From Anaeroplasma bactoclasticum (GTDB lineage Bacteria > Bacillota_I > Bacilli_A > Acholeplasmatales > Anaeroplasmataceae): a stretch of DNA of 33,660 nucleotides. Numbering within the stretch: the first letter of the stretch is position 1; every line of letters starts with the position of its first letter. Made by a program: the position numbers and the translations under genes. The stretch is taken from NCBI GenBank assembly GCA_023663825.1, contig JAMPGQ010000019.1:1-33660 (forward strand), read 5' to 3'. Below are positions 4,309-19,037 of the stretch, piece after piece. Under the pieces are notes generated by a model. The model saw only the letters and a list, made by a program, of their open reading frames with translations, was not told the DNA's origin and ran no database searches.

Positions 4309-6273
4309 CTAGGATATAGCTTTAATTACGATTAAAGAAAGATCGTCTTTTAATCTGCCTTTTTCTTTCTTTTTTAAATAATTTACTATAGAATAACAGG
4401 CTTCCTCAGCCGTTTGATCTGGATTTACCAAGGCTTCAAATTCTTTGTTGCTGATAAAATCACCAATACCATCGGATAGTAAAAATATAAAATCACCACT
4501 AAATACATCTAGTTCATAAGCAGAATTTACATCATCAAGTTTAAGAGGAAGTGCTTGATTTTCATAAGTTAAAAGCTTTTGATTATGTAAAATGTAAGTA
4601 GTAGAAGAGCCCATTTTATATAAATTCATTTTGCGATTGGCAGGATTGATACTTAAAAAATCTAATGTGGCATATCGATCATAATTGCTTCTAAGCTCGT
4701 AAATATCCTCTAGTAGCTTTAAAATTGTTTTTGTTCGAAAATGGTAACTAGAAAGAGTGGATATTGTTTTTAATGCATCAATAGATTCGGTATAGGCAGT
4801 ATATCCACTTCCCATACCATCACTTAACGCAAATACATAGGAATTATTGAAGTCCTTTTTAATATAGTAATTATCCCCACTCATCAGATTTCCTTCTTTA
4901 GCCAAAATGGTATGTGCGTAAGTAATCTTTAATTGAGGCTTTTTGAAAAAATAGACTTGCTCTTTATTTTGTTTCATTTCTAAACGTTCTCCAAAAGCTT
5001 TGTATGCACATCTTAAAAATAGAGATTCTATAATTGGTTTATTTGTATCTAGCTGAATAGAAAAATAAAGAGAAGAGGAAGCTAAATTAATGTCTAATGC
5101 ATTTATTGGATATCCATATCCGTATAATAAAGATATGAATTTTTCATATTCTTTTTTTAAGGATAAGCTTTGATTATATAAATAGCTTAGTTCAAAGGAT
5201 AAGGATTTCATAGCACTATATTCAAAGCTTTTATTTATGTTCTCTGTATTTGCATCTAGAACAAAACGATTATAGTAAGGACAATTATAAACATTTTGCC
5301 TAAATCCAAGCATTGCTGCAGATAAGAAGCTATATCTTTTTTCTAACTTTGTTCGGCACAATGAATTTTTATTGCAGTTTGCACAATAGGTTTTACTAAT
5401 CTCAGCAAATTTCTTTTCTTTTAATTCTTTGATTTTTACATTTTTATTATATTCTGTATTGAGGTTAGAGATATACTTGTTGAAATCATCAAATAATGTA
5501 TTAATATAATTTTGTTCTATGGTAAGTTTTTTATCAGTAAACGGAAGTATTGTTATTAAAATACTATACAGCATGCCAAATACCCAAATTATATTTTTAT
5601 AAGTAAAAGTAAAAACGATGGTGATTGGCATATAGGATATGGCTGTTGGAAGGAGTATAATCGATAATTGAGTATAATCTTTTATTGCTAATAGCAAAGC
5701 GTAAAGAAAAATAAATACTAAATTATATTTAAAATCTCGTATTAAGAATAATTGCATAAACAAGAAATACATTATATATGTATTCTCGCAATAATAAAAG
5801 ATAATAAAGAAGTATCCAAGTAGAATGGTTAAATCAATTAATTTCTGTTGATAAGGAATAATCGTGTTCTTATGTTCTATTTTTTGAAATACATGAAGAG
5901 CGTTAATGATTCCATAAATAACAAATAAGTAAAGCATTATTTTTAATGTATCTGCTTGAAAGCCTTGAAGAATATATAAAACAGTAAAAGTGGTTAAGCT
6001 ACTTAATCCGAATACCCCTAATGCATAGTATCTGTTCTTTTTAATAAAAGGATAAAGTAATACATGATAAGTAAGTACAGCAATTAGGATATACGTGTGG
6101 CTTAATGGTAGATAGAAAGCAATACTTAATGGTAAAATTGTAAACCATATATTTTCTAGTGCTAGAATAGATATTAAAAACCCTGCAGTAAAGATAGAGA
6201 TATCTTTCGGAAGGAATAATAAAGATGCAATATAAAAACAATAGTGTAAGGCAAACAAAGCATATTTTCTCAT
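4309..6273 (-). CDS. spoIIE: Stage II sporulation protein E (SpoIIE), PP2C-type phosphatase
   Basis: A 654-residue protein. Residues 1 to about 245 are a polytopic membrane region of roughly ten hydrophobic segments. A linker follows with a cysteine cluster at C297, C300 and C306, then CP near 331; I recall a similar cluster in clostridial members. The C-terminal SpoIIE/PP2C phosphatase domain (about 440-654) has its metal-binding acidic motifs: DGMGSG at D485, LSDGIGD at D601 and KDDLSLIV at D643/D644. In the known pathway SpoIIE sits at the polar septum and dephosphorylates SpoIIAA, which frees sigma-F in the forespore. At 654 residues it is well short of the roughly 830-residue Bacillus protein; most of the difference is in the membrane and central regions. 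The start has AGGTGA 7 nt ahead on the minus strand. It is transcribed alone, convergent to rpsR. It indicates sporulation capacity or recent descent from spore formers. Confidence 0.93.
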   Translation of the reverse strand: MRKYALFALHYCFYIASLLFLPKDISIFTAGFLISILALENIWFTILPLSIAFYLPLSHTYILIAVLTYHVLLYPFIKKNRYYALGVFGLSSLTTFTVLYILQGFQADTLKIMLYLFVIYGIINALHVFQKIEHKNTIIPYQQKLIDLTILLGYFFIIFYYCENTYIMYFLFMQLFLIRDFKYNLVFIFLYALLLAIKDYTQLSIILLPTAISYMPITIVFTFTYKNIIWVFGMLYSILITILPFTDKKLTIEQNYINTLFDDFNKYISNLNTEYNKNVKIKELKEKKFAEISKTYCANCNKNSLCRTKLEKRYSFLSAAMLGFRQNVYNCPYYNRFVLDANTENINKSFEYSAMKSLSFELSYLYNQSLSLKKEYEKFISLLYGYGYPINALDINLASSSLYFSIQLDTNKPIIESLFLRCAYKAFGERLEMKQNKEQVYFFKKPQLKITYAHTILAKEGNLMSGDNYYIKKDFNNSYVFALSDGMGSGYTAYTESIDALKTISTLSSYHFRTKTILKLLEDIYELRSNYDRYATLDFLSINPANRKMNLYKMGSSTTYILHNQKLLTYENQALPLKLDDVNSAYELDVFSGDFIFLLSDGIGDFISNKEFEALVNPDQTAEEACYSIVNYLKKKEKGRLKDDLSLIVIKAIS

Positions 6274-13576: not shown

Positions 13577-13629
13577 AAATGTTTAAATTTGTAAGTTTTT
13601 GTAAATACTACCTAATGGATGTGATATTT

Positions 13630-14145
13630 ATGAGAACTATGGGCATCGTTAGAAGAATCGATGAACTTGGTAGAATTGTAATTCCTAAGGAGGTACGTAA
13701 AAGACTTCGTATGGATAGTGGAGATTTAGTAGACATTAGTGTTGAAGAGGATAATGTTGTATTATCTAAGTTTCATCCATTAAATCATGATCAAGAAATG
13801 GTTGCATCATTTTGTGATTCTTTAAAGGAAAGCTATCAGATAGATCTTATCATTACTAACCTACAAAAAGTCATTTATTCCACATTAGATGATGACATAA
13901 ATGATGAGGAATTAGATTCGGAATTTTTAAAACGAATTCATTCCTATATTGAAAAAGAAATATCAGCTTTAAATAAATTAATTTTAACTAAAAACTATAC
14001 TATAGATAAAGATTGTATCTGTTATGAAATTCATATAGAAAATGAATTGTTTGGATATTTAATTTTATTAGATAGTATGATTAGTAAAAAACAAAAGGAT
14101 ATAGCTGGTTTCGTTTTAAATTATTTTGATAAAATATTTAAATAA
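13630..14145 (+). CDS. spoVT: AbrB-family sporulation regulator SpoVT
   Basis: A 171-residue protein. The ATG at 13630 (MRTMGIVRRIDELGRIVIPKEVR) is chosen for GGATG at 13617-13621, 8 nt ahead. An earlier in-frame ATG at 13579 adds residues unlike the family. Residues 1-50 are a swapped-hairpin AbrB DNA-binding domain; the rest fits the degenerate GAF-like C-terminal domain of SpoVT, which is 178 residues in Bacillus. In the known system SpoVT is a forespore regulator that tunes sigma-G genes and germination. Its position downstream of prs-pth resembles the Bacillus order, which supports SpoVT over AbrB or Abh. With spoIIE it is the second sporulation marker in the window. Confidence 0.88.
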   Translation: MRTMGIVRRIDELGRIVIPKEVRKRLRMDSGDLVDISVEEDNVVLSKFHPLNHDQEMVASFCDSLKESYQIDLIITNLQKVIYSTLDDDINDEELDSEFLKRIHSYIEKEISALNKLILTKNYTIDKDCICYEIHIENELFGYLILLDSMISKKQKDIAGFVLNYFDKIFK

Positions 14146-18464: not shown

Positions 18465-18480
18465 TAGAAATTCCCCTCAT

Positions 18481-18509
18481 TTGCAAGCATAAAAAAAGTG
18501 TGCTATGAT
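18481..18509 (+). promoter_or_regulatory. Promoter of the sense transcript of the convergent small-RNA locus
   Basis: TTGCAA at 18481-18486, a 17-nt spacer and TATGAT at 18504-18509. Start near 18516. The sequence around the -10 (GTGTGCTATRATTA) resembles that of the rpsF promoter. Confidence 0.72.
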
Positions 18510-18542
18510 TACTATGGCACATAGTGCTGCTTAGGAGGTTCT

Positions 18543-18599
18543 ATGAACAAAGCACACGCTTCAAAGGAAACGATGAACGTGTATATGGAGGTTGACTAG
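18543..18599 (+). CDS. 18-residue leader peptide
   Basis: MNKAHASKETMNVYMEVD, with AGGAGG at 18533-18538, 4 nt before the ATG. Its TAG (18597-18599) directly abuts the ATG of the next micro-ORF and lies inside the hairpin that holds that start codon. Ribosomes that translate it would melt the hairpin and could reinitiate, so it probably serves as a coupling leader. No known peptide is recognised. Confidence 0.5.
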   Translation: MNKAHASKETMNVYMEVD

Positions 18600-18613
18600 A
18601 TGGAGTATCTAGT
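18595..18613 (+). promoter_or_regulatory. Hairpin sequestering the start codon of the hydrophobic peptide
   Basis: ACTAGAT (18595-18601) and ATCTAGT (18607-18613) form a perfect 7-bp stem with loop GGAGT. The ATG at 18600-18602 spans the stem-loop junction. The leader stop codon lies in the 5' arm, so leader translation would control access. Confidence 0.65.
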
Positions 18614-18680
18614 GGTACTGGTCATTATAATAGTTTTGCTATTTTTAATGATTTGTATCTTAACTGGTAAGCGGAAGTGA
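18600..18680 (+). CDS. 26-residue hydrophobic single-pass peptide, candidate type I toxin
   Basis: Starts MEYLVVLVII, continues as an uninterrupted hydrophobic run through residue 21, and ends TGKRK. This gives one membrane segment with a basic tail, the general form of type I toxins such as Ibs, TisB or Fst, though not a recognisable member of any of them. GGAGG at 18587-18591 is 8 nt from the ATG, an ideal distance. The start codon sits in the hairpin 18595-18613. The short length means a chance ORF must be considered. The strong ribosome-binding site, promoter, terminator and antisense promoter around it argue against chance. Confidence 0.6.
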   Translation: MEYLVVLVIIIVLLFLMICILTGKRK

Positions 18681-18741
18681 ATCAGTGAACCTCAGTAGGC
18701 TGCTAAGCCTATGATAGTAGTACGTTCGTAGTTTCCTTGTA

Positions 18742-18798
18742 AGCGAAAAGGGTAGGTCGCCACCTACCCTTTTCATTTTAATATAGTAATACGTTCAC
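18742..18798 (-). ncRNA. Antisense RNA (about 55-60 nt), candidate type I antitoxin
   Basis: From the minus-strand promoter at 18833-18805, transcription would start near 18798 and end at the shared terminator. The 5' end GUGAACGUAUUACUAU is single-stranded by inspection. It can pair along all 16 positions with 18714-18729 of the sense RNA (13 Watson-Crick, 3 G-U), in addition to full complementarity over the terminator. It contains no ORF of note. Ends are predictions. Confidence 0.55.
18746..18773. terminator. Bidirectional terminator shared by the convergent small RNAs
   Basis: AAAAGGGTAGGT (18746-18757) and ACCTACCCTTTT (18762-18773) form a perfect 12-bp stem with a CGCC loop. Both strands end in TTTTC, so it can stop transcription in either direction. 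It is the strongest hairpin of this intergenic region. Confidence 0.88.
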
Positions 18799-18804
18799 AA
18801 CTAT

Positions 18805-18833
18805 ATTGTAATCTATATTTATATATTTTGCAA
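18805..18833 (-). promoter_or_regulatory. Minus-strand promoter of the antisense RNA
   Basis: On the minus strand: TTGCAA (18833-18828), exactly 17 nt, TACAAT (18810-18805). It is back to back with the S10 promoter, whose -35 starts 37 bp away on the plus strand. Confidence 0.65.
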
Positions 18834-18904: not shown

Positions 18905-19020
18905 GCTTATCGAATAAGCGCACTAGCTGTGAAGTGGGAGGTTGCCGACACACTGAAGAGCGTTGTCATTGCAATGTATCGGGTTTTCCCATGGAGCAAG
19001 TCTATACAAAGATTATAGGC
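18905..19020 (+). promoter_or_regulatory. Structured leader RNA of the S10 operon
   Basis: A leader of about 130 nt precedes rpsJ. It opens with stem GCTTAT (18905-18910)/ATAAGC (18914-18919). A larger domain is closed by TGGGA (18935-18939)/TCCCA (18987-18991) with inner CCGA (18945-18948)/TCGG (18979-18982), and encloses the palindrome CATTGCAATG (18967-18976). The phrases GGAGGTTG, GACACAC and ATGGAGCAAGT resemble, from memory, leaders found before rpsJ in other Firmicutes, so it is probably an autoregulatory ribosomal-protein site. Which protein binds (L4 is a candidate) is not shown. No uridine-tract attenuator is visible. Confidence 0.65.
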
Positions 19021-19037
19021 GAAAGGAGTTTAAAAAA

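Follow-up and report, generated by a model that had tools for sequence, protein, structure and literature searches.

Three pairings compete for one 3' segment in a putative type I toxin-antitoxin-like locus of Anaeroplasma bactoclasticum and its relatives

Introduction

Can an antisense RNA that resembles the leader of its own target regulate it by competing with that leader for a single 3' segment? The question is raised by a convergent locus at positions 18480-18833 of a 33,660-nucleotide (nt) stretch of Anaeroplasma bactoclasticum DNA (contig JAMPGQ010000019.1 of assembly GCA_023663825.1, forward strand; hereafter the window), which reads like a type I toxin-antitoxin system. A predicted sense transcript, RNA I, would encode a short hydrophobic peptide, the putative toxin, and a predicted antisense transcript, RNA II, would meet it at a common terminator. 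A preliminary description of the sequence had proposed that a direct repeat lets the 5' end of RNA II compete with an internal fold of RNA I. Either a 3' segment would fold back on the translation start region unless the antisense RNA holds it, or degradation would follow the contact between the two RNAs. We found that three pairings, not two, compete for this segment, and covariation indicates that they are kept in related loci. We consider it reasonably probable that these loci, found in Anaeroplasmataceae and a neighbouring family, form a type I toxin-antitoxin-like family not described so far and work by the mechanism set out below.

Results

From the positions of promoter and terminator, RNA I was predicted to run from near 18516 to 18779 on the plus strand, comprising a leader open reading frame (ORF), the peptide ORF, a 3' untranslated region (UTR) and the terminator. 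RNA II, predicted in the same way, would be about 58 nt long (18798 to 18741, minus strand), leading from its promoter through the second copy of the direct repeat to the same terminator as RNA I. The first repeat copy (18714-18729) lies in a segment of the RNA I 3' UTR that we call B (18714-18744, plus strand). The 5' end of RNA II (complement of 18783-18798, the second copy) pairs with 18714-18729 at all 16 positions, by 13 Watson-Crick and 3 G-U pairs, exactly as first described. Shuffled RNA I sequences never reached this match (0 of 5000; the best 16-nt match of a shuffle was 15). The internal helix of 18573-18582 with 18720-18729 (7 Watson-Crick and 3 G-U pairs) was likewise present where the preliminary description had placed it, but its extent had been understated. 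GGAAAC.AUGAACGU at 18566-18581 (segment A, plus strand, directly 5' of the toxin Shine-Dalgarno sequence) faces 18721-18736 in 15 pairs with one mismatch.

A second internal partner of B had been missed. Segment A0 (18529-18548, plus strand), which holds the Shine-Dalgarno sequence (18533-18538) and start codon (18543) of the leader ORF, pairs with 18724-18744. The minimum-energy fold and the A0 test described below ruled out A as the main partner of B; the leader ORF start is an equal partner. The footprints of A0, A and RNA II all overlap on B, and the pairings are mutually exclusive; the direct repeat puts the antisense 5' end in competition with the leader for a single 3' segment. The earlier interpretation thus held for the two predicted RNAs, their competition and the exclusion, while being incomplete in that B has two leader targets.

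Related loci were found in the genus by DNA search, and a profile of 17 peptides found relatives in 33 of 55 genomes of Anaeroplasmataceae at E ≤ 0.1. A search of 160 genomes of the order with a wider profile (E ≤ 0.001) gave matches in 34, three of them from a second family. The sole match outside the family in a 296-genome sample of the class (G317, locus L228) was without the locus architecture and was rejected, and a leader DNA pattern run over named genomes gave true loci mixed with chance matches. The curated set held 55 loci of Anaeroplasmataceae and 12 of the second, neighbouring family. Common to these loci, with few exceptions, are the promoters, the 5' hairpin, the leader ORF, the peptide, the bidirectional terminator and the direct repeat flanking it; two promoters and a common bidirectional terminator were found in nearly all. 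The direct repeat has 11-14 of 14 identical positions across the terminator in every locus but one (L083), which was left out.

We compared the pairing energy of each segment with its own B and with the B of a different cluster, using 52 Anaeroplasmataceae loci in 30 clusters. The permutation keeps the real sequences and uses no tree model, and its z values are not exact probabilities. All three pairings preferred the cognate partner: A0:B gave -17.9 kcal/mol against -11.7 kcal/mol for swapped partners (z = -11.1), A:B -22.3 against -14.9 kcal/mol (z = -10.3), and the RNA II 5' end with B -22.0 against -9.4 kcal/mol (z = -22.3). Two controls behaved differently: A0 with RNA II showed no favourable cognate preference (cognate -5.8, swapped -6.7; z = +2.6), and A with RNA II none worth naming (z = -0.9). 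The 12 loci of the second family have a different core (GCAAUGA types), and all three pairings held there as well (0 of 3000 permutations each), with 3 of the 12 terminators mis-placed by the script. When 18 close loci were aligned, pairing stood at 95.1% in the A0:B core helix, where 3 of 8 pairs had changed on both sides, and at 89.3% in A:B, where 2 of 15 had; sliding the partner by one to three columns destroyed the pairing, for whole structures.

Three hairpins co-vary likewise in swapped-arm tests: the start-codon hairpin CUAGAU/AUCUAG around the toxin AUG (18596-18612, plus strand; z = -9.5, 3 of 6 pairs changed on both sides), the 5'-terminal hairpin of RNA I (18516-18528, plus strand; z = -9.9) and the bidirectional terminator hairpin common to both RNAs (18745-18774; z = -16.4). 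The choice of the same base by A and RNA II at wobble positions of B showed a weak association, uncorrected for ancestry, and was not used. Compensatory change in homologous loci, which the preliminary description had named as a check, was therefore found by the swapped-partner tests, in the second family and in the alignments. This covariation shows that selection maintains the competing pairings across about 60 related loci.

Counted from the terminator, the footprints on B are centred about -31 to -12 for RNA II, -30 to -7 for A and -22 to -1 for A0. RNA II overlaps A by 5 or more positions of B in all 52 loci and, by the same measure, A0 in 50 of 52. Because the footprints overlap, RNA II resembles the leader, both A and A0. 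The sites of A0, A and RNA II that face one B core read AAUGAACAAG, AAUGAACGGA and GAUGAACAGA in L116; in L056 they read GAGACAAUGG, GAGACAAUGA and again GAGACAAUGA. The outer parts of the footprints differ, RNA II reaching further 5' on B and A0 further 3', a layout that would be expected for strand exchange. Several genomes carry tandem copies of the locus, as at L036, L044, L072 and L110 (two or more within a few kb), with repeats that have mostly diverged. In multi-copy genomes RNA II paired with its own B at -21.8 kcal/mol, against -12.1 kcal/mol with the other copies, and the own partner was strictly best in 24 of 33 cases, the exceptions being mostly near-identical duplicates. Paralogues within one genome are thus predicted to be largely insulated from one another.

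In the window the leader ORF (MNKAHASKETMNVYMEVD, 18543-18599, plus strand) has its own Shine-Dalgarno sequence and ends at the toxin start. Leader ORFs whose stop falls in the interval from 30 nt ahead of the toxin start to 4 nt past it were found by script in 43 of 52 loci; most of the remaining loci also have one by eye, overlooked by the script, and the typical length is 11-18 codons. The peptide ORF follows at 18600-18680 (MEYLVVLVIIIVLLFLMICILTGKRK, plus strand), preceded by the Shine-Dalgarno sequence GGAGG (18587-18591). It encodes a hydrophobic peptide of 26 residues with charged residues at the end.

We then examined the predicted folds for the direction of the switch. The minimum-energy fold of RNA I contains A0:B (-103.2 kcal/mol), and forcing A:B gave -100.7 kcal/mol. 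The complex in which the RNA II tail sits on B and each terminator is folded reached -129.1 kcal/mol, against -125.8 kcal/mol for the separate RNAs, which would leave the intra- and intermolecular states nearly balanced before any loop-loop contact is counted. Fully zipped terminators were more stable (-150.2 kcal/mol), with A:B staying in place. Since the repeats are direct, the tail helix and the zipped terminator cannot form together as a nested structure; a forced B helix combined with fully zipped terminators was discarded for this reason, its energy not being meaningful. Displacement of the fold-back by the tail would accordingly be a question of kinetics.

When B and the terminator were masked, the mean unpaired fraction rose from 0.33 to 0.51 for the toxin Shine-Dalgarno sequence and from 0.42 to 0.54 for that of the leader, bound RNA II being represented only as an unpaired mask. 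Nascent RNA lacking the 3' UTR gave 0.55 and 0.57, respectively. Access to the toxin start codon was nearly constant across states (means 0.31 to 0.33). Since masking opens both Shine-Dalgarno sequences in prediction, silencing of the leader by B is expected. The idea that RNA II binding hides the toxin Shine-Dalgarno sequence was disfavoured, the B-masked folds showing the opposite trend. An antisense RNA that merely holds B, the first form of the switch in the preliminary description, is therefore predicted to turn the toxin on, and its other form, degradation after contact, is favoured: with the ribosome-binding sites predicted to be freed, repression would most likely go through decay of the paired RNAs.

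The remaining features of the locus were assigned from the sequence and the predicted fold. The RNA I promoter (plus strand, 18481-18509) consists of TTGCAA (18481-18486) and TATGAT (18504-18509) separated by 17 bp, with a comparable promoter in nearly all homologues tested. The RNA II promoter (minus strand, 18805-18833) has TTGCAA at 18833-18828 and TACAAT at 18810-18805, again 17 bp apart. A further 3' UTR hairpin is predicted at 18695-18712 (plus strand). In many homologues (e.g. L014, L024 and L077, in the region after the terminator) RNA II opens with a small 5' hairpin of the GUCGNNAGAC type, followed by a leader-like stretch; RNA II of the window is without this hairpin. Two loci, L047 (G002) and L113 (G037), keep the peptide ORF and have no recognisable terminator-repeat-antisense half, and are possibly decayed or orphan loci.

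The locus is flanked on one side by a gene for a BNR/sortilin-like protein and on the other by the S10 ribosomal protein operon, which has its own leader RNA. That S10-Clostridia ribosomal protein leader (RF03136, 41.9 bits; 18921-19022, directly downstream and ahead of the S10 operon) was the only element to reach the cut-off in Rfam searches at gathering and permissive thresholds. Pfam and NCBIfam gave no peptide family above cut-off, the weak matches looking like ordinary membrane-helix similarity. No real match to the locus was found in phage and plasmid collections, and searches of the open-licence literature turned up no account of type I systems in relatives of Anaeroplasma. Elsewhere in the window we noted a pectate lyase with Listeria-Bacteroides repeats and a CBM77 module (567-2945), a protein with a SpoIIE-type phosphatase domain and a hydrophobic N-terminal part (4309-6273, minus strand) and an AbrB/MazE-fold regulator (13579-14145, plus strand), which we take to be SpoVT-like. 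The last two are possible sporulation remnants, or working parts, in a lineage counted with the Mollicutes.

Discussion

In the mechanism we propose, B of free, full-length RNA I would fold back on the leader and block ribosome entry at both the leader ORF and the toxin; aapA3 and hok provide precedents for such a 3' fold-back (PMC6733600). Toxin translation would need ribosomes on the leader ORF to open the start-codon hairpin, a coupling modelled on that of mok and hok (PMC4147584). The two RNAs would meet at the terminator loops and in the B helix. Since RNA II copies the leader, its binding to B would require displacement of the fold-back, making the competition near-balanced. For RNA II to act as an antitoxin, a further step would have to come after binding, most simply RNase III decay: the complex would be cut and then decay, as was shown for txpA/RatA (PMC3531473). 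An RNase III gene is encoded in the genome. Divergence of the repeats would let tandem copies recognise mainly their own partner, and the peptide would damage the membrane when RNA II is lacking. More tentatively, and with the odds rather against it, regulation may work through an exchange of strands between RNA II and the leader on a single 3' hub; whichever of three near-equal pairings wins would decide between silence, decay and release. This would be a third type I mode besides start-site masking and long-duplex decay.

Several points weigh against the proposed mechanism. Free co-folding zips the terminators and leaves A:B paired, a state that RNA II can reach without displacing the fold-back, and nested folding cannot represent the loop-loop contact. 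The predicted effect of masking B differs from locus to locus. Leader ORFs run into the toxin in three loci (two of 41 codons and one of 30), and leader-toxin coupling may not be universal. Moreover, transcripts and toxicity are predictions from sequence, and the named records of true loci are metagenome assemblies.

We weighed other explanations of the same data. The repeat and its pairings could be functionless by-products of duplicated sequence or chance, and a lone 10-bp helix would indeed be weak evidence against this, as such helices are common in AT-rich RNA. The shuffles, the swapped-partner z values of -10 to -22, the same result in the second family and the compensatory pairs contradict this explanation, which could be revived only by an error in locus identification; we regard it as extremely improbable. 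It is also conceivable that RNA II is an activator or balancer that captures B, opens the leader and turns the membrane peptide on, the locus then being a regulator and not a toxin-antitoxin pair. As a copy of the leader, RNA II competes with it for the same partner, B masking opens the leader in prediction, and the toxicity of the peptide is putative. However, convergent genes, a bidirectional terminator, a short hydrophobic peptide with charged end and tandem copies are the marks of type I loci, where the antisense represses, and we think an activating role improbable.

A somewhat stronger challenge, though one we still hold to be unlikely, is that RNA II controls translation and not decay. 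Pairing of B with A (or A0) might be needed for translation or permit it, or RNA II might refold the leader and hide the ribosome-binding site. There are precedents for both, in the timP pseudoknot (PMC11228461) and in the hidden ribosome-binding site of BsrG/SR4 (PMC4147584). RNA II competes for exactly the paired segment, and a conserved hairpin encloses the toxin start codon both with B bound and with B free. Masking B, in contrast, raised the mean predicted access to both Shine-Dalgarno sequences, the opposite of what such control would need, in folds where RNA II was modelled as a mask. Decay after RNA II binding is accordingly the outcome we retain for the proposed mechanism.

Relation to known systems

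As in type I toxin-antitoxin systems generally, a small hydrophobic peptide gene and an antisense RNA with its own predicted promoter are found here, in nearly all homologues. The par/Fst system of pAD1 (Fst/Ldr superfamily) shares the convergent promoters, short antisense RNA, bidirectional terminator and oppositely transcribed direct repeats, as well as a 5' structure on the toxin RNA and a short hydrophobic peptide (PMC7472228). RNA II would, as in par/Fst, pair with its repeat partner and with the terminator loop. In par and Fst-Sm, however, the repeats of the toxin mRNA overlap the translation start (PMC7472228, PMC3543317), whereas in the present locus the repeat copy of RNA I belongs to the 3' UTR, the start regions are not targets of RNA II, and a leader ORF is present. 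An Fst-type peptide (PXXXG motif) was not recognised: 17 relatives matched no Fst model of Pfam or NCBIfam and hold no proline, though peptides this short can escape profiles.

With hok/sok the locus shares a leader ORF 5' of the toxin. Both also have a 3' fold-back onto the start of that ORF, indicated here by A0:B covariation and the predicted fold. The hok mRNA is in addition processed at its 3' end (PMC6733600). Sok targets the leader region (PMC4147584), whereas RNA II would target the 3' fold-back segment and copies the leader; antisense pairing with the leader ORF start of the hok/sok kind was not found in the A0:RNA II control. The overlap here is also at the 3' ends of convergent transcripts, and the peptide is unrelated.

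In txpA/RatA and bsrG/SR4 of Bacillus subtilis the antisense RNA likewise contacts the 3' end of the toxin mRNA; RNase III decay follows, and SR4 has a remote structural effect on the ribosome-binding site as well (PMC3531473, PMC4147584). As in the txpA/RatA class, predicted antisense pairing is confined to the 3' region of the toxin mRNA. Their overlaps are about 120 nt, whereas here the contact consists of the terminator hairpin and a 16-nt repeat; a leader ORF or direct repeat is not described in the available portions of these sources. In aapA/IsoA of Helicobacter pylori the full-length toxin mRNA is silenced by a 5'-3' long-distance interaction (PMC6733600), as proposed here. The host is unrelated, and the source, in the part at hand, describes neither a leader ORF nor repeat-based competition. 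In timP/TimR the mRNA has mutually exclusive conformations on which the antitoxin acts, with no processing (PMC11228461), but there the pseudoknot is the active form, whereas the fold-back is the inactive form here by prediction.

By the tests made, the locus works like parts of par/Fst and hok/sok and is a member of neither. It would join the leader-ORF and 3' fold-back logic of hok with the convergent repeat-terminator logic of par/Fst, the antitoxin being directed at the fold-back element. Some 60 natural variants, among them multiple copies in one genome that are predicted to be largely insulated from each other, offer a ready mutational series for the competition between an antisense RNA and an intramolecular helix.
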